Origin: Bacteroidota bacterium
Lineage (GTDB): Bacteria > Bacteroidota > Bacteroidia > AKYH767-A > 2013-40CM-41-45
Assembly: GCA_004295015.1 (NCBI GenBank)
Contig: SHNE01000022.1
Span: forward strand, 1-64,000
DNA: 64,000 nt
Direction of reading: 5' to 3'
In this document: positions 19,730-53,359 of the stretch, in pieces
How the letters are laid out: each line of letters starts with the position of its first letter
Position numbering within the stretch: the stretch's first letter is position 1
The notes under the pieces: generated by a model
What the model was told of the DNA's origin: nothing
The model's input: the letters and a program-made list of their open reading frames with translations, nothing else
Database searches by the model: none
Made by a program: the position numbers and the translations under genes

Positions 19730-20314
19730 ATGAACAGATACGAGAAAGCAAAAACGGATATACTTGATTATTTAAAATTGAGCCTCCCCGATACTCTTTA
19801 TTATCACAGTTATAGTCATGTATTGGATGTATTAAAGGCAGCGGAATATATTGCCGAAAAGGAAGGTGTAAGCGAGAGTGACCTGGAGCTGCTCCGGATT
19901 GCGGTCCTGTATCACGATTCAGGTTTTACTGTTGATTCAAAGGAACACGAAAAATTGAGTTGTGAAATAGCACATAACCGATTGCCTGCTTTTGGTTTCA
20001 GCTATAATGAGATTGAAAAAATTTGCCATATTATTATGGCCACAAAATACCCTCATGCACCGGCCGGTTTATTGGAGGAAATAATTTGTGATGCTGACCT
20101 CGACTATTTAGGGCGTGATGATTTTTTTGAAATTGGAAGAACATTGCTGAGTGAGCTCAATGAAGCAGGTCGTTTTAAAACAGAAAAAGACTGGAATCAT
20201 TTTCAGGAAAAGTTTCTTAGTTCACATAAATATTTTACAAAAACTGCCAAGGAATTGCGTCGGGATAAAAAACTTGAGCACCTTGAAAAAATAAGAGAAA
20301 GTTTGAAAGAATGA
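19730..20314 (+). CDS. HD-domain phosphohydrolase
   Basis: The product (194 aa from the ATG at 19730) is a metal-dependent HD-superfamily hydrolase. Ligands are visible as 'YYHSYSHVLDV', the eponymous HD in 'AVLYHDSGFTVDSKEHEKL', and the downstream 'CDADLDYLGRDDFFEIG'. A start at 19685 would add 15 residues; the shorter form begins 'MNRYEKAKTDILDYL', as related proteins do. HD hydrolases act on nucleotides or phosphate esters; the substrate cannot be told from the sequence. It lies 130 bp behind the hybrid kinase on the same strand and ends 25 bp from the convergent adenylate cyclase gene. Confidence 0.85.
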   Translation: MNRYEKAKTDILDYLKLSLPDTLYYHSYSHVLDVLKAAEYIAEKEGVSESDLELLRIAVLYHDSGFTVDSKEHEKLSCEIAHNRLPAFGFSYNEIEKICHIIMATKYPHAPAGLLEEIICDADLDYLGRDDFFEIGRTLLSELNEAGRFKTEKDWNHFQEKFLSSHKYFTKTAKELRRDKKLEHLEKIRESLKE

Positions 20315-20338
20315 ATTTAATTCTGTGTAAACGGAGTT

Positions 20339-22480: not shown

Positions 22481-25400
22481 TTATTTTCGTATGACGAAAA
22501 ACTTTTGCACCGATTTTTTTCCATCCATTGTGACTGCAAGGAAATAAACTCCCGGTGACCACAATGAAGATTCAATATTCAGGCTATGTTCGCTATTTGC
22601 TTCAACGAATCTGTCGAACAATACTTCTGATCTGGATCCATTGATTTGATATACTTCAATTAGCACCTGATCGCTTGTACCTGTGATAAATTTTAACACT
22701 GCATCTCTTGTGGCTGGATTAGGATATAGTTGGAAACTCATTACTTCATCCATTTCAGGTGCTTCCAAGCGGCAGTTAGTATTTACCGAAACTGATTTGT
22801 TTTTAGGTAAACTTAAACCGCAAAGGTTTTCTGCACGTACAGTTAGTGTTGTTGAATTTGAAGTTCCCGGACTAAAGTTAACAAGGGCTGTTGTGCCTGT
22901 TCCCTGAGGTGTAGGAATAACTCCATTTGTTGCATACCAGTGATACGTTATGGTTCCGGGTACTGTAGATGCTGTATATAGTACAGAGCTTTGGCTCTTG
23001 CAAGAAGTTGCCGGCCCATCAAGACTTGCCGGAGCCACAAGTAATGCAGAGACAGGTAAGCAACGTGATATGGAAGCTCCGCATGCATTGGTTGCGCTTA
23101 CGCATATAGTACCATTACCTGTGAAGGCTGCAGTATAGTTTACGGTTATAGATGTACCTGTGTTTGAGATAATATTAACGCCTGAAGGTACAGTCCAGTT
23201 ATATCCTGTAGCTCCGGTTACGGAAGCTATACTGTATGTTACACCGTTGGTCAGACATAATCCTGTATATGGTCCGGTAATTCCTCCCGGTTGTCCGGGG
23301 ATGGATCTGATTGTAAATTCACGAGTAAATGTTCCACATGCATTACTTGTGGATATCGATAACACTCCACTGGTAAACGATGGTCCAAAATTGAAGCTTG
23401 CGCTTGTACCGTTTTGCGAAGCAACACTCACATTGCCGCTAACTACCTGCCAATTGTAAGTGTCAGTCCCGATAACAGGTGCCATTGAATAAACTACTCC
23501 ATTGGTTCCTGCACAAACGTAAGTAGGTCCATTAACTGCATTGCCATTTACAGGAAGTCCCGTAATAGTCATTGATCTTGTTGAAGTACTTCCCAGGCAA
23601 TTAGATGCATAAACCATTACTCGTCCTTGTCCAAATGTTTCATTAACACTCACCACGATCGAATTGGTACCTTGCCCGCTTAGCAATGTAGCACCTGATC
23701 CGGTTACTGTCCATGTATAACTGGTCGCATTTTGTAGCGGACTAATTGAATAAGTATGAAGGGCAGGTCCGCATGCTATGGATGGTCCGGCAATGAATCC
23801 CGGATTTGATGGTCTAAGAGAAAGCACGATGATATTTGTGCTGGATATTTGACCACTACCACATAAGTTTTCAGGCTGAACACTCAAGAAGCCACCATTG
23901 AAGGTGCTTGAGAAGGAGAGTGTAATTGAAGTTGTAGTCGAAGACCCTGTAGCTCCTGCAGGTACTGTCCATACATATGAAGTAGCACCTGAGACCGGAG
24001 CGATAGAATAAGTGACGCTGGTACTGCGACACGCTCCAGGAGGTCCTAAAATTGCTCCTGCAGGATCAGGCGGAACACCGGATCCGTTTACGGTTACATT
24101 TACAACTCCGGTACATCCGGCTGCATCTGTAATCGTCGCGGAATAAGGTCCTGCAGACAAGCCGGTAGCAGTTTGTAAAGTTTGTCCATTCGACCACAGG
24201 TACGTATAAGGAGCAGATCCACCGGTAGGGTTTACCGTAGCAGTTGCATTCGCTAATCCGCAAATTTCACTCGTACTGCTGGCTGTACCTTCTACTTTAG
24301 TTGGTTCCAGTAATTCGAAGGTGCCTGTGGCAATATTGCCATTATCATCAATTACAGTAAATGTTTGTACGCCTGCCACAACTCCACATACATTTCCGGT
24401 ACCGATATAAGGAGCAGTTCCACCGGTTACGGTGACATTAACACATCCCGTTCCGTTGAAACACTGTATCGGACTTGCCTCTTCAACCGTTACGTTGATA
24501 ACAGGCGGAAGCATGGTCAGTGTACCAAGACCGTAGGTGATATCAAAATTATTTGTTGAAAGCAATGCGCCCGGAACAATCTTGTGTACGCCGGCTGTAG
24601 TACCGGTGATCATATTAATTGAATAGAACGTTTCCAGTGAATCTCCCGGAGGGGCATTTACATCTTCTTCATCGATGATTACAAGCACGTCATCATGTGA
24701 AGGATCATCAACGTCAACACTATTGACAATTGCTCTGCCATTCACAATGGCCCGAGCATTAACGATTGGCCGGCCATTGACGATAGCCCTTCCGTTCACG
24801 ATAGCTCTTGCATTTACAATAGCTCTTGCATTTACAATAGGCCTTGCGTTCGCAAGAGGTGCAGAGTCAGGATTTAATTGATAGTTAAAGATAGATTCAA
24901 CAGCTACATCAATAATATTGGTGGTGTCATATTCAACTATGTTGTTGACAATAGCTCTTGCATTTACAATTGGTCTTCCATTCACAATAGCTCTTGCACT
25001 TACCATGAAGCTTAATGTTTCTATATCTGCATTAACGATGGCGCGTCCATTAACGATTGCTCTTGCATCGACTAGGGCAGTAGCATTCTCAGCAAGGTTG
25101 TCTTGATGTTCGTTAACAAGGTCAGTGAGGAATATCGCGCGGATGGCCGGTTCAATTTTCGAATCGTCATAATTATAGCTAAAGGAGAATCCATTAATTT
25201 TTTGCCCTTCCGTTAGGGTGGTATCATTTGGTGTAATTTCCAAAGGAAGTTTTTCGATTGACAAAATTGCGTTGACGAAACTGAAATTATATTGTTCAAG
25301 AATTCCGACATCAATGCTGTCAGCCGGATTCAAAACGCGCATTGAAGGTTGGATGAAATACGAACCAACATTACTCAGGCTGTGAGCCGGGGTAAGAAAA

Positions 25401-28400
25401 AAGATTGTGTCTAATCCAATATCAGACATAGTCAAACCCGTATTTGCAAGCGGTATGCTGTCAATTGTTACTGATACAGAAAAAGCCGGAAGCGTTTCAC
25501 CAAATCTTTTTGATGTGTCATTTGCTGTAACAATGACCATGTGTTTAGTGCTTGGGAAGAAGAATGCGGAATCTGAATGGCCACCATCATTCATATTTAT
25601 TGCGGCCGGAGGAGTATAAACTTGCACCGGCGGGTTACCCATAAATGGAGGGAAAGAAGCCAAGAGTTGTGTTGAACTTATCATTGTTGTTGGAAGCGGA
25701 TCACCTCGTAAGAGAACTACGGATGTTGGCGTGTAAAAATGACCGTGAACATTTACATCCATGCTTTGTGTTCCTGCAATAATTGTGGTGTCAACAATAT
25801 TTAAACTACTGATAATTGGTTTACCAATTGCAAACGATTGCAGAGCAGCATCAGCTTGAATAAATCCGAAACCGGTGCTGTCATCATATCCCACTGTAGG
25901 TCCCATTTCAAGAGTGGTAGTTTTGAGAATGGTTCTGATTTCTTCCGGGGTTAATTCAAGGTTGGAGAATTTTCTCTTTCCTTCAATGAGCAATGCAGCT
26001 ACAGCAGCAGCGTGAGGGGCCGCGGCAGAGGTGCCGAAGAAGTTAGGTAATAAATCACCGTCGATATCTGGGCCGCCAAGCATAACTGTTGTATTTCCTC
26101 CATTAGGTCCTACAAAGTCCGGCTTCATCCTATTCACACCATTGATCAAAGCGCCTCCAATTGAAGAGAAAGTAGCAATAGTCGGTTGAGCCAGGGTGTC
26201 GTTGAAGGCAGGTGTATTCAGGTATAAAGCTGCTCCTACTGTCATAGCTCCTGAAGCATTAGCTTGTCCAACAATGGTTGAAGATTCAGTATTGTATTCA
26301 TTAATTACACCTTCACCACGGAAAATAATATACTTGAATTTTACGTTTGAGCTTCCGGCAACTTTTGTGATCATGATATTTGCATCTGTGTTCCCTCTAA
26401 CGGAAAATGACAATACTTCTACCGGATCACCGTTGATGTTATCTCGATTAAAACCGAAGAGTACGACTCCGCCATTATCAACTAAATAAATATCTAAATC
26501 AGTAGCTGCACCAGGCAGTTGTCCCAAAGAATACAAGGAATCTTCCCATTGCAAAACAATAGTATATGCTCCACGAGCAAGTGAGAGATTTTGATAAATA
26601 TCGCCGCCACCAAAATTATGTGGAACGCCAAATACACCAGGGGGAGTTGGGGCCGGTTGGAATGTTCCTTCGTATGATTTTTTTCCGTAGTTACCTGCAG
26701 CAGTGAAATAAGCAGTTCCTAGGTCTGTGACATAGTTTACAGCCTGAGCTACGACACCATCTTGGTAGAATGGTTCTGTGATAAATGTGATATCATCAAC
26801 TATTACGTCACAAAGATCCTCTTCACTTAGTTGCTTGATACCATTTGCTAAGTCACCCGCACTAATGAAGCCGGTTCGAAATGCAAGCTCAGCATCCGGT
26901 GCGACGTCGTGCACAATTTGCAGCATGGCCCGACCTTCATCGGTTCTTAATCCGAAAGGATATTCCTTTCTGACAGTAACAGGGATTGTATGGCCAAACA
27001 GGTTTCCGATTCCCGGCAAATCGCCGTTGCCAACGTCTGTCAATGCCGGATTTCCAATAATTGTGTTATAGCTGTCTGAAAGAACACCAACTTTTACGCC
27101 GGCGCCACTTAATCCGAATGAACTTCTTGCTCTGTCTCCGCGGATGGCAACATCACCATCACTATAAGCCAGCCCTGTTGCTCCGGAACCAATCACCGGT
27201 GGATAATATGGTCTTCCAAAGTTCAATAGCGTTGGGATACTATCAAGTTTTCCAAGATTTCTAATTGGATATTTTCCGGTAATGATCAAGGAGCTAAGAC
27301 CGTTGTCGACGGTATCAGTCAATCCGTAATCAGGTGTAATCAATAATGTATACAAGGAATCACGCATCCCTTCAATTGCAATAAATTCCATGAGTACACT
27401 ATCGCTCCTGAATAAGAGGAGGTTTTCGTTCAAAGTGTCTTGGGCTATTGTATCAACATTCTGAAACAAAGATGTAAGCTCTGAACCAATAATATTTGCA
27501 ACGTGTCCGCTATCGGGTGGTGTAACAGCAGGAACGATACAGGTAATTACGGTAACGTTTGCTGTTGTTACTGCCATACAACCGGATATGTCAGTGACAG
27601 AATAGAAATAAGATCCGGTTAGTAAACCTGTTGTAGCAGCACCTCCCAAAGTGTATGGTGGTGTTCCTCCTGCAGGAGTTAGTGCTACACTTCCGGTGCT
27701 TCCAATACATACATCTTGTGCTGTTGGGTTTGCTGTTAATGTGAGTTGTGAAGCTTGTGTGATTGTCAGGCTACAGGTAGCGCTACAACCATTCGCATCA
27801 GTTACGGTAATTATATAAGTGCCTGCAGAAATTCCGGTAAATGTTCCTGTGCCTGTATATGGGGCTGTTCCACCGGAGGCAGAAACACTGTAGGATCCTG
27901 TATTTTCACCGAAGCAAAGCACATTTGAAATTACAGTACAGGAAGCTGAAAGTGTTTGTGGCTCTGTGATAGTTGCCCCACATGTTGTTTGACACCCATT
28001 CGCATCTTCAACATTATAATAATATGTACCGGCTGATAATCCGCTTAGCGGGTTACCAAAGATTGTATAGGGAGGAGTTCCTCCGCTTGCAGTTACGAGT
28101 GAAACTCCATCGGAAGCACCATTGCAACTAACACCTGAAACCTGCGATCCGAATGCATCCAGATAATCTGGTTCTGTAATAGTCGCTGCAGTTGTTGTAA
28201 TACAACCCAAAGCATCTTCAACAGTATATACAGTAGTACCTGCACTCAGTCCGCTAAATATTCCGGTTCCTGTATAAGGTGCGGTTCCGCCACTTGCATT
28301 TATACTGATTGAACCATTGTTTCCATTCCGGCAACTAACATGATTAATAACTGTCACAGATGCAATTAAATTACAGGAAGGTTCATTTATGGTCACTGAA

Positions 28401-31400
28401 CAAGCAGCGCTTGAGGATCCGCAACCGTTTGCATCATCGACGTAATAATAGTATGTACCAGCACTGAGATTTGAATGCAAACCATCATCTCCGGAATAAG
28501 GTGGAGTGCCGCCGCTTGTCACGACTAGGGCAACTCCATCATTTCCTCCGTTTACTGAAACATCATTAACCGTTGAGCAATTAAACTGAAGGGGGTCAGG
28601 CTGGGTGAGCGTTATCGTCACTGTATCTTCGCATCCAACAATATCTACTACAGAGAACGTGTACGTGCCAGCATTCAAGGAATAAATCATGCCGGTTCCG
28701 GTGTAGGGAGCAATTCCACCTGAAGCATTTACTTCTATTACTCCATTGTAATATCCATTGCAACTTGGCTCCTCGATGATAGAAGCACTGGCAGTAACAT
28801 TACATGGAGCCTGGTTTATTGTAACGGAACATGAATTTGATGAGGATCCGCAACCATTCGCATCATTGACGAAATAATAATAGGTGCCGGCATAGAGATT
28901 TGTGTGTGACCCATCATCGCCACTATATGGAGGGGTGCCACCTGTGGTTGTAACCAAAGCTTCGCCATCATTGCCTCCATAAATTGACACATCGCTTACT
29001 GTTGAGCAGATGAACTCTAAAAGGTCCGGTTCTGACACAGTCACCGGCAGCAGGCCACTGCCACAGCCATTTTGATCTGTTCCGCCTACATAATACTGGC
29101 CCGGTGCCAAACCATTAAATCCTCCTGAATTATTTGTGAGGTACAGACTATTCGGACCATACAAATAGTATTCGTATCCTGTCGGGAAATTTATTAAATC
29201 TGTCCTTGGAGTTCCTCCTGAAATGCCACTAAAATTTATTTGTCCGTCATCATACCCATTGCAGCTAACGTTAGTTGAATTTGCAGTGCCTGTAATGACA
29301 AGGCTTGGCTGATTTATAAGGAGTGAATCAGAAACAGAACAACCGAGTGAATCCGTTACAGTATAGCCAACAATCGTATCGCTTCCGGCAAATCCATTGA
29401 GCACAAATTGTCCCGTACCTGAATAAGGCATTGTACCACCGCCAGCACTGACATAGATTGTCGAAACATATCCATAACAATCGGGTTCTGATGCTAAGAG
29501 TTCGATAACAGGATTTTGATTTACACTAACCGTTACAACCTGGCACATTCCCGGAGTTACGCAGGAGCCTTCCCCTCTTACATAGTAAGTTGTTGTTGAG
29601 ATTGGGCTTACATTTGCAGAGGTTCCGGATGCAATTGGTGTTCCTCCACAATTCCCTGTATACCAATACCAATTGGTTGCACTGTTTAAATTGCCACTGC
29701 TGATAGAAAGTGTTACGGTTCCGCCACTACACACAGAGGTGTCCTGAACCGTCGGTACATCAGGTGCCATGCACGCTGACGGAAAATAATTAGCATAACT
29801 ATTTTGCCCGCCAAATGCTCCTGCATCATTTCGACTTCCATTGATGTCAAGATAAGGGACAGCCGGATGGCCTCCATCGATTGCATCGCTGCCTGCTAAT
29901 AAAACTCCTGCTGAATTGATGCTTGAATTGGAAAGGTCAGTGTTAGTTGTATCAGCGCTAAAATTGGCGAAGCCTGCACCTGCACCGTTAGCATTTCCGT
30001 AATTGGAATAATTATATGCAAATTGACTAAATGTAATATCACCGACATTCCACAATGTATACCTGGAATTTAGAAGAAGATTGTTTAAAAGTGAAATAGT
30101 GTGCGTAGACCCGATTTGGAAAAAGTAACCGGGTGAATCTCCATCAGTCTGAATGGTATTGTTAATGGAGGAATTGCCCGGAGAGCTGCCTAGTTTAAGG
30201 TCCCGGAAATACAAAACTGCATTAGAAGTGCCATGAGTTCGCAGAAAATTATTTGATACATCCACATATTGAGTATTGCTCCAAAAGCCAATTGTTCTGC
30301 CACCACCTTGAACATCAAAATGATTTCCTCGTACCAGGACAATGTCGTTGGATGCGGAATTTGAGCTTAAGATGTTAGTGATTTCATAATAGCCTGCCAC
30401 TGAAGATGAAATGTAATTGCCTGTCCATCTTCCTCTATATAACGTCATCATGGTTACGGCAGCGTTGCTGAAGATTGAGTCGTTTTCAACAATAAAATTG
30501 ATATTATTCGGTGATCCATGAACCTGTCCGGTCACTTTGCAATTTGACAATCGTTCTCCAGGAGCAGATGTACCATAATTCGTTACAATACCGTTTATAT
30601 CTGCTTCGTGGATTTGCCATCCTGTTCCCATACTGATATTTCCACTAATTTTATATTTGATTCCTGGTGTTCCACTGATAAACTTAATATCAGACAAGGC
30701 AATACCGTTTATCGTTTCTAAGTAGGCAAATCCACCGGATTTAGGAAATATTTTTATTACTACTCCATTACCGGCATCAGTTAGAGCTGCATTAATGTTT
30801 GGATACTCACCATTCGTTCCATTGGCATTAACCAACAATGTGTCAACTAAGCCATCGCAATTGTTATCCAATCCATCCATAAGTTCAGTCGCTCCCGGAT
30901 AAATCCCTGCAATTGCATCATTGCAATCAGAATTATCAGCTACATAACCTGATGGTTGGTTGCATGAGAGTGAATCCACGGTCAAATTTCCAAATCCATC
31001 AGCGTCTGAATCAAGGTACCAGGTTGAAGGGGTACATGCAGGTTCTCCGATGTGGAAATCACCCAAATCAGAAAAGTTGTTCAATGTAATCGTATTGCTT
31101 CCTCTTGAAAGTATATTAACAGGTGTCCAGTTGGAGGGGCTTAATGTTTTTCTTGCAATGAAATTGTTAAAGTTAGTTGAAGTGTCATTTTCCGCAGCAT
31201 CCCAGTTCAAAGTAAGATATGCATTGCTAAAGCCCGAAGCTGTAGATGTGCATCTCCAATAACGATTGACATTCTTTGCAGGATCAATTCCGGAAGTTAA
31301 TACGTCGGGATGATTACCGGCATTTGTAGAAATGGTAACAGCACCCGGAACTGTAACATCAATTAAAGATAATTGAGTAAAGCGAAGTCCATTTGCATCA

Positions 31401-33109
31401 CCAACCTGATAATAATGAGTAGTAGTTCCAACAGGAAAATAGAATTCCAGATTTCCGTCTACATATCCTGCAGGTCCTGAATTATTTTGTATCGATGAGC
31501 CGGGTGCCATAATAAGTTTATATGGTCCGGTATGGAGAGTACCATAGTTGAAATTCAACAAAGTTGTTATAGTTTGATTACCTCCAAGAGTAAGCCCGGG
31601 ACCAAAATTAAACATCAGAAGAGTGCTGATTGTACCTGTACCGTAAAGTGTTTGAGGTACAGAACCGAAAAAACCCATGTAAGGCAAATCAATAGTTCCA
31701 TTGTTGGTACATGAAGCCGGGACATAAGACATGGGGCCGGAGCCGGAGACCAAAGCTCCGCTGGTGACGTTAAAGGTTGCGGTTCCATAATATCCAATTT
31801 GCCCGTTTTGGCGAAGGTCTACACCGGGACCATTTGCAATCGTTAAAGTACCGGCATTAACCTGGATCACTCCTCCGGGATTAATTGTTGTTTCATCTAT
31901 GGTTAGATTACCATTGATTGAAACTGTATACGGGTTGAGGATGGTGATAGAGTTATCGGAAAAATTAGGAGAATGGGTTGCTGCGACCCATGAGGAGCCG
32001 TTGTAAATCTGCCATGTAGACGCTGCTTCCCAGTTGCCGGAGTTTGCACTTCTGAAACTTCCTGCTATTTCGTCAACTACTCCATTACAGTTATCATCAA
32101 TTCCGTTAACAATTTCGATAGCTAATGGATGCACGTTGACATTTCCATCATTACAATCAGATGAGTCAGAAACATAACCTGATAGTGGTGCACAAGATAA
32201 AGTTGGGGCGAACAGATTCCCGTACCCGTCATTGTCTGTATCTGCATAGTATCGTATTGCTGGCGTGGATGCAGGTCCGTTGTTTACCCAATTGGATATA
32301 GTGCCCGTTAGTGCAAAGTTTGTGAGGCTCATCTGATTTCCATTTCCGCTTGCATCAGTTAATGTGCTAAGACCGGAGTTGTTTCCATAGGGCGTACCTT
32401 GGTTGAAGTGGTAATTGGCTATGAGGTTATTTTCGATGGTTGTTATTTCGCAACTAAATGTGTTTTGGATTTCACTCTGTGTAAGAGCTCTGCTCCAAAT
32501 TCTTAATTCATCTACAGAGCCGCCAAAGGGTTCAAAAAATCCATCCCATTGTGAGCCAATAAAAAGTTGCGCTACCAACGGGTTTGCAGGTGCGGAATTG
32601 GTTGGATTGGGAATGGCAAATCCGGCTGTAGCACGGAGAATCCCGTCCAGATAGAGGAAGGTATTTGTATTTGTTCGAACTACTGCATAATGATGCCAAT
32701 TCAGATCTGTCGGCCAGGCAACACCGGTATTATACCAATAATCTCCTACTCTGAGTGTGTCCGTATACAATTGTCCAATGTAAAAAAATCGGCCTTGGGA
32801 TATGAGGGTTTTGAGTTGTCCGGATTGAAAGTTGTCTTGCTTTGCCCAAATCGAGACAGTGTATTCACCTGTCGTAGGAATTAACTCTACCGGACCATTG
32901 ATAACGTCATCTATCCCATCAAAGTGAAGAGCTTGAGAATTTCCTGTCTGCGGGTTAATTAAATTAAACAGAATAAAAAGAAAAAATAATTGAACCACTC
33001 GCAATGCGTGCTTCAATTTTAAAGGAGATTGATTTGTTTTTTTCTGTTTGGCGTTTTTGCTGGTGGAGTTAATTTGATTCGTGTTTCTGAACGTAGAAGT
33101 TAAATTCAT
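22481..33109 (-). CDS. Giant T9SS-exported multidomain protein with S8/S53-like protease domain
   Basis: This 3542-aa protein has a long N-terminus with a hydrophobic export segment ('VVQLFFLFILFNLI'). Domains in order: LamG-like (about 58-225), a MopE-type metal-binding motif (285-350), a second such motif (697-757, 'DNSDCND' and 'GLDNNCDGLVD'), a parallel-beta-helix-like region (760-1115), an Ig-like domain, and about eight SprB-type repeats (1200-1857, 'SCNGYYNG...GGIAPYTGTG'). A propeptide-like region (1860-1975) precedes the protease domain (1993-2424) with Asp2012, Glu2058 in place of His, Asn in 'AAGNYG' and Ser2361 in 'GTSAAAPHA'. An IPT-like domain, MBG domains carrying the RAIVN hexad array (2681-2796), SprB and Ig/PKD-like domains follow. 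A T9SS type A sorting domain (3457-3542) ends the protein. It is probably a cell-surface or secreted adhesin/protease. Confidence 0.9.
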   Translation of the reverse strand: MNLTSTFRNTNQINSTSKNAKQKKTNQSPLKLKHALRVVQLFFLFILFNLINPQTGNSQALHFDGIDDVINGPVELIPTTGEYTVSIWAKQDNFQSGQLKTLISQGRFFYIGQLYTDTLRVGDYWYNTGVAWPTDLNWHHYAVVRTNTNTFLYLDGILRATAGFAIPNPTNSAPANPLVAQLFIGSQWDGFFEPFGGSVDELRIWSRALTQSEIQNTFSCEITTIENNLIANYHFNQGTPYGNNSGLSTLTDASGNGNQMSLTNFALTGTISNWVNNGPASTPAIRYYADTDNDGYGNLFAPTLSCAPLSGYVSDSSDCNDGNVNVHPLAIEIVNGIDDNCNGVVDEIAGSFRSANSGNWEAASTWQIYNGSSWVAATHSPNFSDNSITILNPYTVSINGNLTIDETTINPGGVIQVNAGTLTIANGPGVDLRQNGQIGYYGTATFNVTSGALVSGSGPMSYVPASCTNNGTIDLPYMGFFGSVPQTLYGTGTISTLLMFNFGPGLTLGGNQTITTLLNFNYGTLHTGPYKLIMAPGSSIQNNSGPAGYVDGNLEFYFPVGTTTHYYQVGDANGLRFTQLSLIDVTVPGAVTISTNAGNHPDVLTSGIDPAKNVNRYWRCTSTASGFSNAYLTLNWDAAENDTSTNFNNFIARKTLSPSNWTPVNILSRGSNTITLNNFSDLGDFHIGEPACTPSTWYLDSDADGFGNLTVDSLSCNQPSGYVADNSDCNDAIAGIYPGATELMDGLDNNCDGLVDTLLVNANGTNGEYPNINAALTDAGNGVVIKIFPKSGGFAYLETINGIALSDIKFISGTPGIKYKISGNISMGTGWQIHEADINGIVTNYGTSAPGERLSNCKVTGQVHGSPNNINFIVENDSIFSNAAVTMMTLYRGRWTGNYISSSVAGYYEITNILSSNSASNDIVLVRGNHFDVQGGGRTIGFWSNTQYVDVSNNFLRTHGTSNAVLYFRDLKLGSSPGNSSINNTIQTDGDSPGYFFQIGSTHTISLLNNLLLNSRYTLWNVGDITFSQFAYNYSNYGNANGAGAGFANFSADTTNTDLSNSSINSAGVLLAGSDAIDGGHPAVPYLDINGSRNDAGAFGGQNSYANYFPSACMAPDVPTVQDTSVCSGGTVTLSISSGNLNSATNWYWYTGNCGGTPIASGTSANVSPISTTTYYVRGEGSCVTPGMCQVVTVSVNQNPVIELLASEPDCYGYVSTIYVSAGGGTMPYSGTGQFVLNGFAGSDTIVGYTVTDSLGCSVSDSLLINQPSLVITGTANSTNVSCNGYDDGQINFSGISGGTPRTDLINFPTGYEYYLYGPNSLYLTNNSGGFNGLAPGQYYVGGTDQNGCGSGLLPVTVSEPDLLEFICSTVSDVSIYGGNDGEALVTTTGGTPPYSGDDGSHTNLYAGTYYYFVNDANGCGSSSNSCSVTINQAPCNVTASASIIEEPSCNGYYNGVIEVNASGGIAPYTGTGMIYSLNAGTYTFSVVDIVGCEDTVTITLTQPDPLQFNCSTVNDVSVNGGNDGVALVVTSGGTPPYSGDDGLHSNLSAGTYYYYVDDANGCGSSSAACSVTINEPSCNLIASVTVINHVSCRNGNNGSISINASGGTAPYTGTGIFSGLSAGTTVYTVEDALGCITTTAATITEPDYLDAFGSQVSGVSCNGASDGVSLVTASGGTPPYTIFGNPLSGLSAGTYYYNVEDANGCQTTCGATITEPQTLSASCTVISNVLCFGENTGSYSVSASGGTAPYTGTGTFTGISAGTYIITVTDANGCSATCSLTITQASQLTLTANPTAQDVCIGSTGSVALTPAGGTPPYTLGGAATTGLLTGSYFYSVTDISGCMAVTTANVTVITCIVPAVTPPDSGHVANIIGSELTSLFQNVDTIAQDTLNENLLLFRSDSVLMEFIAIEGMRDSLYTLLITPDYGLTDTVDNGLSSLIITGKYPIRNLGKLDSIPTLLNFGRPYYPPVIGSGATGLAYSDGDVAIRGDRARSSFGLSGAGVKVGVLSDSYNTIIGNPALTDVGNGDLPGIGNLFGHTIPVTVRKEYPFGLRTDEGRAMLQIVHDVAPDAELAFRTGFISAGDLANGIKQLSEEDLCDVIVDDITFITEPFYQDGVVAQAVNYVTDLGTAYFTAAGNYGKKSYEGTFQPAPTPPGVFGVPHNFGGGDIYQNLSLARGAYTIVLQWEDSLYSLGQLPGAATDLDIYLVDNGGVVLFGFNRDNINGDPVEVLSFSVRGNTDANIMITKVAGSSNVKFKYIIFRGEGVINEYNTESSTIVGQANASGAMTVGAALYLNTPAFNDTLAQPTIATFSSIGGALINGVNRMKPDFVGPNGGNTTVMLGGPDIDGDLLPNFFGTSAAAPHAAAVAALLIEGKRKFSNLELTPEEIRTILKTTTLEMGPTVGYDDSTGFGFIQADAALQSFAIGKPIISSLNIVDTTIIAGTQSMDVNVHGHFYTPTSVVLLRGDPLPTTMISSTQLLASFPPFMGNPPVQVYTPPAAINMNDGGHSDSAFFFPSTKHMVIVTANDTSKRFGETLPAFSVSVTIDSIPLANTGLTMSDIGLDTIFFLTPAHSLSNVGSYFIQPSMRVLNPADSIDVGILEQYNFSFVNAILSIEKLPLEITPNDTTLTEGQKINGFSFSYNYDDSKIEPAIRAIFLTDLVNEHQDNLAENATALVDARAIVNGRAIVNADIETLSFMVSARAIVNGRPIVNARAIVNNIVEYDTTNIIDVAVESIFNYQLNPDSAPLANARPIVNARAIVNARAIVNGRAIVNGRPIVNARAIVNGRAIVNSVDVDDPSHDDVLVIIDEEDVNAPPGDSLETFYSINMITGTTAGVHKIVPGALLSTNNFDITYGLGTLTMLPPVINVTVEEASPIQCFNGTGCVNVTVTGGTAPYIGTGNVCGVVAGVQTFTVIDDNGNIATGTFELLEPTKVEGTASSTSEICGLANATATVNPTGGSAPYTYLWSNGQTLQTATGLSAGPYSATITDAAGCTGVVNVTVNGSGVPPDPAGAILGPPGACRSTSVTYSIAPVSGATSYVWTVPAGATGSSTTTSITLSFSSTFNGGFLSVQPENLCGSGQISSTNIIVLSLRPSNPGFIAGPSIACGPALHTYSISPLQNATSYTWTVTGSGATLLSGQGTNSIVVSVNETFGQGRVMVYASNCLGSTSTRSMTITGLPVNGNAVNGPTYVCAGTNGVVYSMAPVIGTDTYNWQVVSGNVSVASQNGTSASFNFGPSFTSGVLSISTSNACGTFTREFTIRSIPGQPGGITGPYTGLCLTNGVTYSIASVTGATGYNWTVPSGVNIISNTGTSITVNYTAAFTGNGTICVSATNACGASISRCLPVSALLVAPASLDGPATSCKSQSSVLYTASTVPGTITYHWYATNGVIPTPQGTGTTALVNFSPGTSNSTTLTVRAENLCGLSLPKNKSVSVNTNCRLEAPEMDEVMSFQLYPNPATRDAVLKFITGTSDQVLIEVYQINGSRSEVLFDRFVEANSEHSLNIESSLWSPGVYFLAVTMDGKKSVQKFFVIRK
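24722..25069 (-). repeat. RAIVN hexapeptide array (18-bp coding repeats), giant protein 1
   Basis: Three in-frame blocks of six-residue units (A/G)-R-(A/P)-I-V-N are encoded: block A at 25031-25069 (2 units), block B at 24944-25000 (3 units) and block C at 24722-24850 (7 units). The typical DNA unit is TTTACAATAGCTCTTGCA on the plus strand, but units differ at synonymous positions, so the peptide rather than the DNA is conserved. The array sits within an MBG-type domain after the protease. Confidence 0.9.
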
Positions 33110-33589: not shown

Positions 33590-36500
33590 TTAGTTGCCTT
33601 TTATCACCTTGAATATCTGTATATCCTGATCTGTATTAAGCAGAATAAAATATATTCCTTCGCGGCATGTTGACATATCGATTTCAAAAACGGAACCTTC
33701 GTTTTTCTGTGTCACAGAAACTGCATAAGTCTTACCTAATAGGTCTATGAGTGAAATATTTTCCTTGTTGAGCAAGATTTGACCTGCATCAATTGTGATT
33801 TTGTCTTTTACCGGATTCGGAAATACTTCTATCTCAGAAAGAACCTTTTCTTGATCATCTGATTGTATGAGTCTGAGATGTGCAGCACATCTTGACGAGT
33901 TCACACTTGCTTCACTAGCAGCAGCAGTTTTTTGATTTCCCTGATAGGTCTTTACGGACCAGGTTAGTTTTAGACCATCAAAGTAAATTTCAAAGTTTCC
34001 GCCACCAGGGAGAAAGACAATTGGTTGAACGCCGCTAAAGAAACCTAATGAGCTAATTGAATTGTCAACGCCAATCGGAACATAAATAGGCGTGCTGTTC
34101 GCGTTTTCATAGGAGAAGCGAGCGAGGTAGGAGAAACCTGAAGGATGGTTCACCAAAGTGTCTACGCAATTCAAGATTGGTTTTACTTTTTTAGCGCCAT
34201 TGCCTTTCGGATTGATGTATAAATAACCCGGAACATAAACTATCTGGTAATTGCCGGGCTGACTAAGTACAAGGTTTTTAGGAGTAATCGTATACACGCC
34301 GGGAGCTCCTACACAATTTGGACTTACCGTATAACTAGGTTGACACACAATCGTATTCTGCCCTCCGGGAACAAATCCGGTAATGGTAGAAGTTTTGCTT
34401 GGTATTGATGATCCCTGAAAAATATATTTAGTATCAGCAGTGACTGTGAGCGTTGCTTTTGTAATTGTGAGCGTACCATTAACATTTGTAATGGTATAGT
34501 TGAGAGCTGTACCACCGTTTACCGTTATCGGATAATTCCCTACGACCGATAAAGAGTTGGCGCTTGTGCTTGCTGTTGGCTCTGTGATATTGCTCTCTGA
34601 ATCTCCATTTACAAAACCTGAATAAGATACTGTCAGCAATGGAATTGCAGCTCCATACACCTTTGTTTTGTTAGAAGCGGTAGCAATAAGCGTCGCCTTC
34701 GTCACTGTTAATATTCCATCGTGTAATTCAAAATCGTAATTATCTGAAGAACCGCCACTCAATATGATAGGATAAGTATTCACCGCTGAGGTCTGGTCTG
34801 CAATCGAGCTGCCGGTAGGCTCTGTGATATCCGAAGGGTCGTCTCCATTTTGAAAGCCGGAATAGCTTACATCAAAGACAGGATTTGCAGATCCGTATAC
34901 TTTCGTTTTGTTATTAGCAGTTGCTGAAAGTGTCGCCTTGCCAACCTGAATTATTCCATCTTCATACTGCACTGTATAGTTCGATGGGATTTTCAATCCA
35001 AGATTAGATGGTCTCACGTCGAATGTTCCGGCAGGAATATTATTTGCGGGAATTGTCTGATCCAAATTATCCAGCACTGTATAATCCGGATCGGATGCAA
35101 CAACACTATCCAATACATCATCATACTTCAATCCGGAAAGGGTAGAAGTGAAGGAAGGAGTTTGTCCATAAACAGATTGCACACTGTCTGCTTTGAGTGT
35201 GAGAACAGCAGGTAGAATTGTCAGTTGCCCTAATCCATAGGTGATGTCAAAATTGTTTGACAGCAAGGAGCCGGGCACGATAGTATGCACACCGGCAGTA
35301 ATTCCTGTGATCATATTAATTGGTTTGATCACATCAAGTTCATCTCCCGGAGGGGCATCAACATCCTCTTCATCAATAATTACGACGGCATCTTCATTGG
35401 AGTTGTCTGTGACCGTGGAGTTCACTAAAGGAGATCCATTAACAATCGGACGGCCGTTAACAATTGCTCTGCCATTCACAATAGCTCTTGCATTTACAAT
35501 AGCTCTTGCATTTACGATTGGCCTTGCATTCACCAGTGGAGAGGCGGCAGAATCTAACTGATAGTTGAAAATGGATTCGACGGCAACGTCCACAAGATGT
35601 GTGGTGTCCATGATGATTCCGTTCACAATCGGTCTGCCATTTACAATGGCTCTGGCATTTACAATTGCGCGGGCACTGACCAGGAAGCTCAGGTGTTCAA
35701 GATCGGCATTTACGATAGCACGTCCGTTTACTATTGCTCTTGCATCAACCAGTGCAATGGCATCGGCCATATCCGCAGTATGCTCTGTCTCCAATGAATT
35801 TAGAAATGCAGTACGGTTGGCCGGACTGATTTCTGTCTCATCATATGTATAAACAAACCCGAGCTCATCGATCTTGTCGCCATAAGTCATCACCGTATCT
35901 TTAGGAGTGATAAGCAGCGGCATTTTATCAATGCTCAATAATCCGTCGGTGAAAGTATACGTATAACTTTCCAGCAGAGCGATATCATCCGCATTGGTAG
36001 GATCCAATTCACTGATAGATGGTCTGATAAAATATAGTCCTACGTTGCTAAGATCTGTGGCCGGTGTAGAGAAGTTCAGACTGTCGAGCCCCAGTTGTTC
36101 GAGGGTGTAGCCGGCAGTCATGTAAGGCACTCCATCCACTTCAATGCTTGCAGTAAATTGAGGTAAAGCTTCTCCGAATTTTTTAGACTTGTTTTCAGCA
36201 ACAACCACAATATTCTTTTTCACCGGGGTAAAGAAAAATATTGAATCAGAATAACCACCATCATTCATTGATGGAGTGATAGGTGGTGTATAAACCTGAA
36301 TCGGAGGATTACCGGTGAATGTAGGAATGACAGCAGACAACTGTGAAGAACTAAGTACGGTGGTGGTTAACTCAACACCTCTGAATAGAATTACACTCTG
36401 AGTAGTCAGAAAGTTACCCTGGACAACTACCGTTAATGGCTGTGTTCCCGGTTGTATGGTTGTGTCTGTAGCATCTAAGTCCAAAATTTCAGGAGTAGGC

Positions 36501-39500
36501 GCTGCAAAGGTTTGCATAGCAGCACCGACGTCAACAAAACCATAACCTGTGATAAAATCAAATCCCGGGCTATTCATATCGATGGCCGTGCTTGTCAGCA
36601 GCGAACGGATATCGGCAGGTGAGATAGTCTGATTGTAGAATTTCTTTTTTGCCGACATGAGCAAGGCAGCTCCGGCACCTGCGTGAGGTGCTGCTGCAGA
36701 AGTTCCGAAAAAGTTAGGGAACAAATCACCGTCAATATTGCTGCCGCCAAGTTCAACAGTTGTATTCACGCCGTTTGGTGCACAGAATTCGGGCTTATTC
36801 CTCACTACGCCATTCACAGGCGTTCCTCCAATGGATGAAAACGATGCCACTGTAGGAGGGTTGACTCCGTATGCAGGAGTGTTCGAATAAAGCACTGCTC
36901 CAACTGCCATCGCTCCGGCTGAGTTAGCCTGACCAACGAGCGTTGAATTTCCTGAAGTGTATTCGTTGATGGCGATCTCTCCTCTGAAAACAACATATTT
37001 GAAGTTTACATTATTCGTTCCTGCAGCACGTACAATCATAATGTTTGTAGTAGCATTGGCTGTAACGGTAAAAGGCATTACTTCCAGCGGGTCACCGCCT
37101 AAATTGTTTCTGTTGAAACCAAAAAGTGTAGTTCCATTATCATAGGTAAGATAAATATCAAGATCATTGTTGGTTCCTGTCTGAGTTTGGCCCAATGAAT
37201 AAATTGAATCGAGCCATTGTAGTACAATTGTATAGGTTCCGGGTGTAAGTGATATGCTTTGATAAATATCACCTCCACCGAAATTGTGCGCCGATCCTGT
37301 CAAAGCACCCGGTGCAGGTGCCGCATTGAAGACACTTGCATAGGATTTGTTTCCATAGTTACCTGCTGCAGAAAAATAAGATACTCCTTGACTCGTAACA
37401 AGATCTGCTGCCTGGGCAACAACTCCATCCTGAAAGAATGGCTCAGTGATATACGTTACGTCATCAATAATAATATCGCAGGTATCCTTCTGAAGTTTTT
37501 TAATGCCTTCTGCAAAATCGCCGGCGCTGATAAATCCGGTACGAAATGCGAGCCTGGATTTAGGTGCAATATCATGTACGATCTGTAACATCGCTCTTCC
37601 TTCATCGGTCCTTTTTCCAAAAGGGTAGTCAAGCAATACAGAAACCGGATTTGGATTGTCCGGGTTTCCTATTCCGGGTAAGTCGCCATTAATGACATTG
37701 GTGAAAGCAGGGTTGCCGCTGATGGTGTTATAGCTGTCTGAAATAACTCCGATTTTTATTCCTTCACCGCCAACATTAAATCCGTTTCTTGCGAATAGAG
37801 AATTCATTGCACTGTCTCCTGCAGATTGTACGATTCCACTGGTGGCAAGTGCAGGATAGACAGGTCTTGCATACCGTACGTATTGAGGAATGCTGTCGAG
37901 CTTTAAAAGGTTTGCAATAGGGAATTTACCGGTTATAATTAATGTGTTAGGTCCGTTATCCACGAGATCTGTCATTCCATAATTTCCTGTCTGCAACAAA
38001 GCAAGCAAAGTTTGATACTGACCTTCGATAGCAATTACTTCAACCATTACACTGTCAGATTGCAAAACGAAAATTTCATTTGCAGAATCATTGATACTGT
38101 TGTAGTGGGTATAAAGTGAATTTAATTCAGAACCGATAAGGTCATCAAGTTTTCCATTGGCAGGCGGTGGGTAATAGGGAAGAATGCAAGGAACTAAAAT
38201 GGCTAAAGCCGAATCCTGTGCGGAACATCCATTTGAAAGATTGGTAACAGTCACTATGTAATTTCCCGGTGATACTATTGTAGCACTTGAGCTGTTTGCT
38301 CCTGAAAAAACGGCAGCGCCTCCTTGTTCATACCAAGAGAATTGAGAGTTTGGAGCCGATGATGTAGCTTGTAACTGAGTTAGGGTTTGTGTACAACTTA
38401 GCTGCATATCAGGGCCGGCACTTACAGTGGGATTAGTATTATCGAGGCCGACCTGCACTGTATCGGTTGAGCTACAGCCGCCGGATGGATTTGTAACGCT
38501 AAGGATATAGGTGCCTGCAGCATCAACTAGTGGAGTAAGTGAATTTTCTCCGGATACAATGTGACCATTAGATGTTGTCCAGTTGTATTGCAAATTTGAA
38601 GGGCTGGATGATCCATTCAATTGAACTTGCGACAAAGAACAGGTAAGGTTCAGGTCTTGTCCCGCATTGGCAATCGGAGGTGTGCAGGATTGAAATGGCT
38701 CATGAATGAGAGTGACATTGCATTGAATATTGACTTGAGTCCCACTCCAAAAGGCTCCTGTGAGTGTGCTGTAACCTGACCCGGATCCAATCAAAATAGC
38801 TGCATATGGCGCCCATACCGTACCTGACCATTTAGATCGGGAATTTGAAGAACTTCCGTTTGCTACAATAAATGAAAAGGTACTGTAATTTGTCCCGTAA
38901 CCATTCCCATGAACTTCTGTGAAGATTTTGGATGCGCTACCACCATTAATAATACTTGTACTTACTTTTCCTAAATCAACATCGCCATGCACATAAATTT
39001 TAATCGTTCCGGTCTGATCACCGTTAAAATCAAAGACAAAATTATTTGTATTGCCTGAGTTTTTAATATAACTGAAAACATAAATTCCGGTTCCGCGGAG
39101 GGTAATCGTTTTCCCGCCGGAGAGCTGGATCTTTCCATAATTGCCCGGTGTAATACTGGCAGAATTAGTAAAGTTAGTCGATCCTGCAGCCGGAAAACTG
39201 AGAATTGGGGGAAGGCTTGGCAAAGCGGGTAAGCTAGGTGTTCCGGTAACATTTCCTCCTGCCGGATTTGGTCCTGAATAGGTGGTACCGGTCGGATGAG
39301 TCACTTTTCCGCTAACGGTACCACTGCTGACCTTAATATTACCCTTGACATCTATGTTTCCTCCCAGGATTGCGTTTGATCCAACCTGCAAGATTGTCCC
39401 ACTTGCATTGGAAGTGTTGGAACTGGAAATTTTCCCATACACTTTATTACTATTAGCTAATTCAATTTTCCCTTTTCCATGAATATCATTTTGAATGATA

Positions 39501-39754
39501 ACAGGTCCAGTTGTCTTAACCAGATTGTAGCTGCCAACAAAACCGCTGTTGACAAGCGACGATGAACCGATTTGAACAGCTGTTCCCGGAGATGTTGGGT
39601 TCGTACAGCCGGGTGTACTTCCATTTCCTCCGAAGAGGACGAAGTCGGTCATTTGAAGAGACTGTGATGTACCTCTAAGTGAAGTAAGGAGAATTAAACT
39701 TACAAGCAGGCTTACTTGCACCAAAATACGATTGGAGAGTTTGTGTGTTGTCAT
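33590..39754 (-). CDS. Giant T9SS-exported S8/S53-like protease, paralogue of the neighbouring giant
   Basis: The ATG at 39754 gives 2054 aa with a clean signal peptide ('MTTHKLSNRILVQVSLLVSL' onward). A start at 39793 would add 13 charged residues and is less likely. The N-terminal domain (about 35-355) is a Gly/Ser/Asn-rich beta region ending in 'WSGTVWAPYAAILIGSGSGY', like polymer-binding or pilus-type domains. Two Ig-like segments follow. A shared core comes next: propeptide-like region (528-635), protease (652-1085; Asp673, Glu718 replacing His, Ser1019 in 'GTSAAAPHA'), IPT-like domain, and MBG domains carrying the RAIVN hexads (1337-1445). Four further MBG-type repeats (about 1517-1845, 'KTKVYGSANPVFDVSYSGF') and a T9SS sorting domain (1972-2054) complete it. 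Only the core resembles the neighbouring giant. Confidence 0.9.
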   Translation of the reverse strand: MTTHKLSNRILVQVSLLVSLILLTSLRGTSQSLQMTDFVLFGGNGSTPGCTNPTSPGTAVQIGSSSLVNSGFVGSYNLVKTTGPVIIQNDIHGKGKIELANSNKVYGKISSSNTSNASGTILQVGSNAILGGNIDVKGNIKVSSGTVSGKVTHPTGTTYSGPNPAGGNVTGTPSLPALPSLPPILSFPAAGSTNFTNSASITPGNYGKIQLSGGKTITLRGTGIYVFSYIKNSGNTNNFVFDFNGDQTGTIKIYVHGDVDLGKVSTSIINGGSASKIFTEVHGNGYGTNYSTFSFIVANGSSSNSRSKWSGTVWAPYAAILIGSGSGYSTLTGAFWSGTQVNIQCNVTLIHEPFQSCTPPIANAGQDLNLTCSLSQVQLNGSSSPSNLQYNWTTSNGHIVSGENSLTPLVDAAGTYILSVTNPSGGCSSTDTVQVGLDNTNPTVSAGPDMQLSCTQTLTQLQATSSAPNSQFSWYEQGGAAVFSGANSSSATIVSPGNYIVTVTNLSNGCSAQDSALAILVPCILPYYPPPANGKLDDLIGSELNSLYTHYNSINDSANEIFVLQSDSVMVEVIAIEGQYQTLLALLQTGNYGMTDLVDNGPNTLIITGKFPIANLLKLDSIPQYVRYARPVYPALATSGIVQSAGDSAMNSLFARNGFNVGGEGIKIGVISDSYNTISGNPAFTNVINGDLPGIGNPDNPNPVSVLLDYPFGKRTDEGRAMLQIVHDIAPKSRLAFRTGFISAGDFAEGIKKLQKDTCDIIIDDVTYITEPFFQDGVVAQAADLVTSQGVSYFSAAGNYGNKSYASVFNAAPAPGALTGSAHNFGGGDIYQSISLTPGTYTIVLQWLDSIYSLGQTQTGTNNDLDIYLTYDNGTTLFGFNRNNLGGDPLEVMPFTVTANATTNIMIVRAAGTNNVNFKYVVFRGEIAINEYTSGNSTLVGQANSAGAMAVGAVLYSNTPAYGVNPPTVASFSSIGGTPVNGVVRNKPEFCAPNGVNTTVELGGSNIDGDLFPNFFGTSAAAPHAGAGAALLMSAKKKFYNQTISPADIRSLLTSTAIDMNSPGFDFITGYGFVDVGAAMQTFAAPTPEILDLDATDTTIQPGTQPLTVVVQGNFLTTQSVILFRGVELTTTVLSSSQLSAVIPTFTGNPPIQVYTPPITPSMNDGGYSDSIFFFTPVKKNIVVVAENKSKKFGEALPQFTASIEVDGVPYMTAGYTLEQLGLDSLNFSTPATDLSNVGLYFIRPSISELDPTNADDIALLESYTYTFTDGLLSIDKMPLLITPKDTVMTYGDKIDELGFVYTYDETEISPANRTAFLNSLETEHTADMADAIALVDARAIVNGRAIVNADLEHLSFLVSARAIVNARAIVNGRPIVNGIIMDTTHLVDVAVESIFNYQLDSAASPLVNARPIVNARAIVNARAIVNGRAIVNGRPIVNGSPLVNSTVTDNSNEDAVVIIDEEDVDAPPGDELDVIKPINMITGITAGVHTIVPGSLLSNNFDITYGLGQLTILPAVLTLKADSVQSVYGQTPSFTSTLSGLKYDDVLDSVVASDPDYTVLDNLDQTIPANNIPAGTFDVRPSNLGLKIPSNYTVQYEDGIIQVGKATLSATANNKTKVYGSANPVFDVSYSGFQNGDDPSDITEPTGSSIADQTSAVNTYPIILSGGSSDNYDFELHDGILTVTKATLIATASNKTKVYGAAIPLLTVSYSGFVNGDSESNITEPTASTSANSLSVVGNYPITVNGGTALNYTITNVNGTLTITKATLTVTADTKYIFQGSSIPSKTSTITGFVPGGQNTIVCQPSYTVSPNCVGAPGVYTITPKNLVLSQPGNYQIVYVPGYLYINPKGNGAKKVKPILNCVDTLVNHPSGFSYLARFSYENANSTPIYVPIGVDNSISSLGFFSGVQPIVFLPGGGNFEIYFDGLKLTWSVKTYQGNQKTAAASEASVNSSRCAAHLRLIQSDDQEKVLSEIEVFPNPVKDKITIDAGQILLNKENISLIDLLGKTYAVSVTQKNEGSVFEIDMSTCREGIYFILLNTDQDIQIFKVIKGN
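35420..35746 (-). repeat. RAIVN hexapeptide array (18-bp coding repeats), giant protein 2
   Basis: The same three-block layout is present: block A at 35708-35746 (2 units), block B at 35621-35677 (3 units) and block C at 35420-35530 (5 units plus a degenerate GSPLVN). The gap between A and B encodes 10 residues in both giants, and that between B and C 30 here versus 31 in the other. A 35-bp stretch (35481-35515) is identical to 24801-24835. Confidence 0.9.
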
Positions 39755-39882
39755 TTGTGTTACTAAGTTTTTTTTTGTGTTTCGACGATGCACTCAGAAG
39801 AGTAGAGGGCACCGAATTTTTGAAGAAATTTTTAAATGATGCAGACTTTTTTTGTAGGCTTATAAAAGTCTGAAAATCAGTT

Positions 39883-40069: not shown

Positions 40070-41836
40070 TTAATGCTTAACTAATTTTTTATGGAAGAAT
40101 TTATCTGCTCCTGATTCTTTGATACGAACAATGTAAAATCCATGTGTAAGATGGTTCAGGTTAGAACGGAGTGTTGTTGATCCAAGGATTTCTTCAAACA
40201 CTTTTTGTCCGCTCAAATTAAAAATCTCAAAATAAGACCCCAATAATTCAGCAGGAATGGATATTGTCAAATGATCTCTTACAGGGTTAGGGAAAATTTC
40301 AATGTGCAATTCGTCATCGTTTTCACTGACTGAAATGGTGCTGTAAAAGAATGCCGATGATTGAATAATACATCCATTGCTATAGGTGGTGCTGACATAA
40401 TAACTTTGGTTAAGACTTGGAACGACAAATGGCAAGGTGTCTCCGTTGAGAATGGCTCCGTTCTCATACCATTGAAATGGCCCGCCACCTGATGCGAATA
40501 ATGTATCATTCATTAGACTTATGCTGACTTCTGCTGCAGGGAGTACGTTGATTGTAGTGTTGTCTGTTGATGTACAACCATTGTTATCAGTCACAAGCAA
40601 TGAGTAATTCGTGCTCGCTATTGGGTTTGCAAGTGGATTTGATACAGTAGCTGAGTTTAAGCCTGATCCAGGTGACCAGCTATATAAATATGGACTTGTT
40701 CCTCCGCTTGCGCTCTGGCTTCCTCCAAGAAGTATGCTCGATCCTTCGCAAATGGTTTGTACAAGGCCGGCATCTGCTGTCAGAGCGACCGAGGGTTGAG
40801 AGATCGCAACCGAAGTTGTCGTGGTACAATTTAATGAATCTGAAATACTAAGCGCATAATTTCCGACAGGTAAATTATTAATTGTGGAGGTGTTGTTGGA
40901 AGGAAAATCAGCCCAGACATAGGTGTATGGTGTAATTCCGCCGCTTACATTTACTGTTGCCATTCCATTTGACCCGCCAAAACATGAAACGTTTGTTTTA
41001 GAAAATGCGCTTTGAATGTTGGAAACTAAAAGTGAAACCGAGCTTGACTGACTGCTTCCGCATGCATTGTTTGCAACCACAGGAAGTGTACCCGAAGCAT
41101 TACCGGCTAAAAGTGAAATCGTATTTGTGCTTGACGTTCCTTGCCATCCTGAAGGATTTGTCCAGGTATAACTTGTTGCTCCTGCTACAGGACTGACTGA
41201 GTAAGTGTGGTTGGAGCCGGAACAAATGGCTGTGTTACCTGAAATTCCGGACGGCTGATCAGGAACAGTGCAAACCTGCTCGTTAATAGTGATGCTTGAT
41301 TTGTATACATAGTCATTGTTGTCATTACCGTTTCCATCAGCTGCTACTCCCGCAAAATAAAAGCCAACAGGACCGGTTCCGGATGCGGGTGCCGTCCAGC
41401 TGAAATTGAAGGTTTTGGAACCACTCATTGCTCCTGCATTAAGTTGGTGAACAACATTCCGTCGGGTGACAGCATTTACCACTCTCGTTTTAATTTGTGT
41501 GGCTGCTGCATCTGTAATGTTCAGTGTGCCGGCATTATCATTAAGGCTGGTTAAAGCTTCGAAAGCAAAACCAAATAAATTGTTAGTAGAACGGGCAACT
41601 GTAACACTAAGGTTATATGTTTGTCCTGCGATATATTCATTTAGAGGCATTCCTGTGTTTTGCAGACTGATTGAACCACCACCCGTATTTACAGGAAAAG
41701 AACCATGACAAGAAGTGCAATCGTTTTCGCCCGGAGAACCGGTGTATCCTGCTCTTCCGTCGTCACTCATTTTTTCGCTTGTCAGGAAAAAAATACAGAC
41801 AAAAGGAATTAGTGCAACAATACATTTTCTTAGCAT
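40070..41836 (-). CDS. T9SS protein with choice-of-anchor V-like domain and CxxCH motif
   Basis: The ATG at 41836 gives a 588-aa protein starting 'MLRKCIVALIPFVCIFFLT'; a TTG at 41848 is less likely. After the export signal comes 'SPGENDCTSCHGSFP', a CxxCH motif that could covalently bind heme c. A domain resembling choice-of-anchor V / Reeler-like domains follows (about residues 50-190, 'SVTVARSTNNLFGFAFEAL', 'GPVGFYFAGVAADGNGND'). Ig/PKD-like segments (195-275), SprB-like repeats ('CFGGSNGMATVNVSGGITPY') and more Ig-like strands precede a T9SS type A sorting domain (last 80 residues, 'IEIFPNPVRDHLTISI' to 'FFHKKLVKH'). Location is extracellular or surface; function unknown. Confidence 0.87.
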   Translation of the reverse strand: MLRKCIVALIPFVCIFFLTSEKMSDDGRAGYTGSPGENDCTSCHGSFPVNTGGGSISLQNTGMPLNEYIAGQTYNLSVTVARSTNNLFGFAFEALTSLNDNAGTLNITDAAATQIKTRVVNAVTRRNVVHQLNAGAMSGSKTFNFSWTAPASGTGPVGFYFAGVAADGNGNDNNDYVYKSSITINEQVCTVPDQPSGISGNTAICSGSNHTYSVSPVAGATSYTWTNPSGWQGTSSTNTISLLAGNASGTLPVVANNACGSSQSSSVSLLVSNIQSAFSKTNVSCFGGSNGMATVNVSGGITPYTYVWADFPSNNTSTINNLPVGNYALSISDSLNCTTTTSVAISQPSVALTADAGLVQTICEGSSILLGGSQSASGGTSPYLYSWSPGSGLNSATVSNPLANPIASTNYSLLVTDNNGCTSTDNTTINVLPAAEVSISLMNDTLFASGGGPFQWYENGAILNGDTLPFVVPSLNQSYYVSTTYSNGCIIQSSAFFYSTISVSENDDELHIEIFPNPVRDHLTISIPAELLGSYFEIFNLSGQKVFEEILGSTTLRSNLNHLTHGFYIVRIKESGADKFFHKKLVKH

Positions 41837-42134
41837 GCTTTCAGGCAAATGATGTGGTTAAGATTTTGAGGACAAAAGTCAGAATCCGTGGCTTGATACA
41901 GAATCCGAATTTCAGAAATTTATTGATTATTCCGGTGCTTTCTTGTAATTATTTATTTCAGATCTGATCGGAAGAGGAGACTCCAGTGCATATTTGGAAG
42001 TAGACTCGATAGTTTTCGGATGGTTTAATTGAAGCTAATTTTCAATTAGAATCTAATCCCCTGATTCTAGCCCGGTTTTATCCCGGCTTGAATAAACAGG
42101 GTGTATAGTATGTAATAGATTCTTAAATTGCTCC

Positions 42135-52842: not shown

Positions 52843-52877
52843 GGGTAGATTAATTTGAGACAATTATAATAACCGGA

Positions 52878-53333: not shown

Positions 53334-53359
53334 ACGCTGAATGTTTATAAAATAGAAGA

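Follow-up and report, generated by a model that had tools for sequence, protein, structure and literature searches.

Genome-specific hexapeptide words in a lattice that interrupts an MBG-type domain of giant subtilase-like secreted proteins from Bacteroidota

The 64,000-nucleotide stretch of DNA analyzed here (the window) encodes on its minus strand two giant T9SS-type secreted proteins, P0001 and P0002, in each of which a module of six-residue units interrupts an MBG-type domain. We think it somewhat probable (roughly 55%), from the comparison of homologous modules, that this hexad-lattice insert would function as a repeated recognition element, with purifying selection maintaining its uniformity and gene conversion accounting for its spread. 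The lattice is composed of word slots and framework slots, and the word is genome-specific in that it follows the genome across deep paralogues. The interruption of the MBG-type domain, the presence of slots that are framework rather than copies, and the genome specificity of the word all go beyond the description of the repeats given by the first-pass annotation of this DNA.

The genes of the two giant proteins are separated by about 0.5 kb, and their main features are as follows:

33590..39793, minus strand: P0001, 2067 aa, with an N-terminal region, PKD/Ig-like domains, a subtilase domain, MBG repeats with the hexad module, and a T9SS type A sorting tail
36458..37900, minus strand: subtilase-like region of P0001, with Asp/Glu/Asn/Ser catalytic-type motifs and a Glu at the place of subtilisin's His
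22481..33109, minus strand: P0002, 3542 aa, with a laminin-G-like domain, SprB and PKD repeats, a subtilase-like region, the hexad module, and a T9SS tail

When tested as T9SS cargo, both giants were found to possess a C-terminal type A sorting domain (PF18962 and TIGR04183), and in both a subtilase-like region is followed by the MBG-type domain that is split by the hexad insert. The subtilase-like regions of the two proteins are 60% identical over 481 aa, and the protease-region tree places P0002 as a deep paralogue of P0001. Directly upstream of P0001 lies the gene for a 592-aa T9SS protein (40070-41848, minus strand) with PKD, SprB and Ig-like domains, domain types that it has in common with the giants. 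A cyclic-nucleotide signalling group adjoins the giants at 17879-22351: one of its proteins is a histidine kinase that also has receiver and cNMP-binding domains, another has an HD domain, and a third is a TPR protein that includes an adenylate/guanylate cyclase domain. At 51989-62203, some dozen ORFs follow one another on the plus strand, and by their lengths alone they suggest a respiratory complex I operon.

P0001 matches the Peptidase S8 profile PF00082 with 55.9 bits (cut-off 21.8), and subtilisin-like PDB chains match its subtilase-like region. Inspection of 46 homologous proteins revealed the Asp, Glu and Asn motifs in all of them and the strict Ser motif GTS(A/M)xxPH in 36; the motif DEGxAM is present in 46 of 46, and a catalytic His in an HGT motif in none. 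Judged by motif, a Glu occupies the expected catalytic-His position of this putative enzyme.

Hexad repeats had initially been placed at 35420-35746; they are real, and this interval coincides almost to the base with blocks A to C of P0001. The modules of the two giants have the following layout:

35186..35920, minus strand: whole module of P0001, in which the hexad insert splits an MBG-type domain
35708..35743, minus strand: block A of P0001 (A1 ARAIVN, A2 GRAIVN)
35675..35707, minus strand: A-B linker of P0001, 11 residues (ADLEHLSFLVS)
35621..35674, minus strand: block B of P0001 (ARAIVN ARAIVN GRPIVN)
35528..35620, minus strand: B-C linker of P0001 (GIIMDTTHLVDVAVESIFNYQLDSAASPLVN), whose last hexad, ASPLVN, is lattice-like
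35420..35527, minus strand: block C of P0001 (ARPIVN ARAIVN ARAIVN GRAIVN GRPIVN GSPLVN), with C6 a framework hexad
24482..25246, minus strand: whole module of P0002, with the hexad blocks spanning 24722-25066
25031..25066, minus strand: block A of P0002 (ARAIVN GRAIVN)
24944..24997, minus strand: block B of P0002 (ARAIVN GRPIVN ARAIVN)
24722..24847, minus strand: block C of P0002, 7 hexads (ARPIVN ARAIVN ARAIVN GRAIVN GRPIVN ARAIVN GRAIVN)

The source genome possesses exactly two hexad modules, those of P0001 and P0002. Exact encodings of ARAIVN or GRAIVN occur 16 times in this 3.86-Mb genome, every one inside these two modules, and reversed patterns used as a control gave 0 and 1 matches. 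Since all 16 exact encodings fall into the two modules, and since A-B linker and block B lengths are kept in most of about 45 homologous modules, the hexads are not a product of chance.

These approximately 45 homologous modules were found in Bacteroidota, and their syntax was read from a parsing set of 51 ORFs, some of them truncated or redundant. The first-pass annotation had proposed that a syntax of 2 + 3 + about 6 units is preserved in the paralogue; P0002 indeed has 2, 3 and 7 units, and most of the homologous modules agree. Its picture of a defined module with a third block that expands or shrinks is likewise borne out, as block A has two units (A1 being often degenerate) and an 11-residue A-B linker and a three-unit block B recur in most homologues. 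Block C is variable in length as had been claimed, but within bounds: it usually comprises five to eight hexads, mostly six (the mode), often seven, and sometimes five or eight. The near-equal linkers were also recovered, with the lengths first given as 10 and 30 or 31 residues becoming 11 (A-B) and 32 (B-C) for P0002 in the register used here. Among the homologues, the B-C linker is mainly 31/32, 37/38 or 43/44 residues long; these values are spaced by roughly one hexad, as would follow from a block C whose foremost units are degenerate hexads.

Random block numbers, which would imply simple slippage, were looked for, and the core family showed none. Tabulation of the homologous modules thus upholds the syntax for the core family but not for its most distant members (L035 and L128-L133), in which it breaks down; other exceptions are a degenerate A1 in several proteins and longer words in two genomes. 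L118 and L120 from genome G007 carry the 7-residue word GSRGIAN, and L128 from genome G640 the 8-residue word NGKSIVIS; the lattice is therefore not strictly hexameric. The distant member L035 (JAOZUK010000099.1) has a very long GFGMVN/GFAMVN series with an X stretch in the translation, and its block syntax is lost.

The module is present in 23 of 42 genomes of the window's order and occurs sporadically outside it, in 3 of 394 other genomes of a phylum sample; a class sample contained nine module-bearing genomes outside the order, and Daejeonella oryzae and a few other named contig records are further carriers. Searching with the subtilase region as query recovered the same genomes as the module search plus one contig-end fragment. 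Protease type and module therefore go together, and in the window's order the module accompanies this subtilase-like protease family one-to-one when contig breaks are allowed for. Viral contigs, searched with a single-protein query, yielded no relative, and plasmids no match. A literature search returned no paper with the repeat strings and none joining all four MBG/T9SS terms, most subscription journals lying outside its coverage.

Within each protein, the word slots A2, B1-B3, C2/C3 and C5 carry nearly one hexapeptide, and between proteins these slots change together (e.g., ARAIVN, AKVVTN, QRVIAS, GKRSVN), yielding 31 distinct words. In the 18 proteins whose block C has the canonical six slots, slots A2, B1-B3, C3 and C5 differ from the protein's own word at 0.11-0.33 of 5 residues and C2 at 0.78, while A2, B1-B3, C2, C3 and C5 differ by about 2.5 of 5 residues between proteins. 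The framework slots C4 (GTAVVN) and C6 (GSPIVN) usually remain constant while the word changes; in the same 18 proteins they differ from the protein's own word by 2.4 and 3.3 residues, and from the same slot in other proteins by 2.1 and 1.9. A1, C1 and partly C2 are mixed slots, and the words of L101, L123 and L109 are not fully uniform within the protein. In the four genomes searched, exact words are confined to module genes.

A protease tree based on some 760 residues preceding the module covers the paralogue pairs of 11 genomes. Two clades, I and II, are separated with support of 100/99 and in 100% of bootstraps, and each genome has one paralogue in each clade. In a permutation test, for which the words were taken manually from the parsed modules, deep paralogues of the same genome differ on average at 0.92 of 6 positions compared with 3.04 after shuffling, a value as low being reached in 0 of 200,000 shuffles, and the words match exactly in 7 of 12 same-genome paralogue comparisons. 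When 752 columns were scanned without preselection, hexad positions made up almost all of the 20 columns that best matched the genome, and none from the subtilase domain stood out as covarying with the word, eleven pairs providing little power. Two near-sister genes that are 81% identical upstream of the module carry GRAIVN and GRVVTN, respectively, in nearly every word slot, and the deep paralogues in their genomes possess the core of each genome (GRAIVN and PRVVTN). Exceptions are genome G032, with the unmatched paralogue words QRVIAS and GRILSN, and G640, which has a third copy with a divergent word. Within genomes the flanks of the module show greater likeness too, though to a far smaller extent than the word; same-genome versus other-genome identity is 0.54 versus 0.45 before the module and 0.56 versus 0.49 after it, compared with 0.545 versus 0.533 upstream. 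Since in some genomes the flanks, too, show greater likeness between paralogues, part of the sharing reflects conversion of whole modules and not selection on the word.

The hexads could have a structural role only, forming beta-solenoid-like rungs that stack into ladders which are stable because they are identical, with no recognition involved. The strict hexad spacing and the conserved block lengths fit this explanation, as do the hydrophobic residue at position 4 (30 of 31 words) and the Asn or Ser at position 6 (31 of 31). However, C4 and C6 usually keep their own sequence while their neighbours in the same run change, so neighbours need not match, and stacking within a molecule does not require that deep paralogues share a word. 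The existence of 7- and 8-residue words also speaks against it, as does the left-handed beta-helix (LbH) rule [LIV]-[GAED]-X2-[STAV]-X, which in its strict form fits 0 of 31 words, and 9 of 31 once N is accepted as well. We therefore regard a structural role alone as unlikely.

Still less probable, in our assessment, is an analogy with multi-copy peptide precursors, according to which the words would be signal peptides flanked by cleavage sites and the paralogues would feed a single receptor. Position 2 is occupied by Arg or Lys in 27 of the 31 words, so that trypsin-like excision of hexapeptides would be possible; the word is uniform within a genome and divergent between genomes, and the secreted protein brings its own protease domain. 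Yet the fixed layout of 2 + 3 + about 6 units, the conserved linkers and the framework hexads within an MBG-type domain would be unexpected for such a precursor, the words of the most distant members (GIPLVN, GFGMVN) are devoid of Arg and Lys, and the column scan gave no subtilase column that covaries with the word.

Hexad copies within proteins have a pN of about 0.11-0.13 and a pS of about 0.67-0.71; pooled over 50 proteins, pS is 0.670 and pN 0.126, a value that takes in framework and degenerate units. Identical words differ in their codons by 0.47 when adjacent and by 0.53 when non-adjacent, compared with 0.61 for random codons of the gene. Near-identical amino acids encoded by near-random codons are therefore not the result of recent slippage, although selected codon diversity could in principle stabilise repeats. 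A third-base comparison of the sister genes, aimed at point substitution versus conversion, found the synonymous sites saturated. Between the paralogues of G007, nucleotide identity is 0.82-0.91 in the module versus about 0.5-0.6 on both sides, a clear tract that we read as gene conversion across the module. For the P0001/P0002 pair, hexad codon identity is 0.57 versus 0.36 expected, with the flanks at expectation. Genomes G009, G010 and G025 share the word or its core with no codon excess left; in G010 and G025 the sharing is exact, the flanks being close to background and the codons random. In L112, Thr codons are ACG in blocks A-B and ACC in block C. Slippage and gene conversion that keep copies alike without selection would explain the G007 tract, the codon excess of the window pair, the slightly greater likeness of adjacent copies and the Thr codons of L112, but this mutational explanation is very improbable in view of the pN/pS contrast, the near-random codons of identical words, the framework slots C4 and C6 that were not overwritten, and the exact sharing in G010 and G025.

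Starting from the conversion tract, the pN/pS contrast and the sharing of words between paralogues, we infer an order of events for the favoured reading, a selected recognition element. From time to time, hexads or whole modules would be copied to other places in the same gene or to a paralogue. Purifying selection would thereafter keep some ten sites of each protein on one word, because the word would act on the outside of the cell as a recognition element presented repeatedly. Recognition in trans is favoured over pure stacking because a change of word is usually not mirrored in the framework slots and because paralogues agree. Such recognition would most likely be multivalent, and either homotypic, with the words of the same and of paralogous proteins associating, or directed at one common genome-specific partner. 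We lean slightly toward a homotypic interaction, since no other protein column appears to covary like the hexads and no other gene carries the word in the genomes tested; these are weak negatives, as a partner may have an unrelated sequence.

More tentatively, the word may be a genome-specific extracellular password that all paralogous surface proteases of a cell must share for mutual or shared-partner recognition. If so, it would provide species- or strain-specific multivalent adhesion or assembly through a code that drifts by concerted evolution, and a word that must match across the proteins of one cell would represent a short, readable and fast-changing identity code on bacterial surfaces. 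Even without recognition, the modules are a clear natural example of concerted evolution that amino-acid-level selection keeps in place, with saturated synonymous sites and with the framework hexads as an internal control.

Among known families, MBG_2 (PF18676, YGX type) is the commonest match, found weakly for 12 of 15 modules (best E 1.4e-4); the half of the P0001 module after the insert corresponds to profile positions 43-72. For member 1 the score is 17.8 bits (cut-off 25), and the match covers the C-terminal half only, the YGD start of the N-terminal half being recognized by eye. The weak score is due to the insert of about 110 aa that, unlike in MBG_2, breaks the domain and that has no Pfam model. 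Used as a profile query, the module matched no solved structure, and an AlphaFold2 model from six sequences was discarded (pLDDT 33). Left-handed beta-helices of the LbH/Hexapep type resemble the lattice in their six-residue period, their small and aliphatic residues and an Asn at a possible corner; in the modules, however, word identity matters beyond residue class, and matches of 15 modules up to E = 1 included no Hexapep family and one weak LbH_EIF2B match (E 0.31). Multi-copy pheromone precursors of the yeast alpha-factor type contain many near-identical peptides per secreted protein that differ between species. The modules share with them the many near-identical copies in one secreted protein and the divergence between species, but differ in having a fixed lattice and framework slots inside a domain family. 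In some subtilases, the sedolisin-like ones, Glu replaces the catalytic His. The protease family of the window resembles these in its Asp/Glu/Asn motifs, but it is assigned to S8 by Pfam and is fused to the hexad module.
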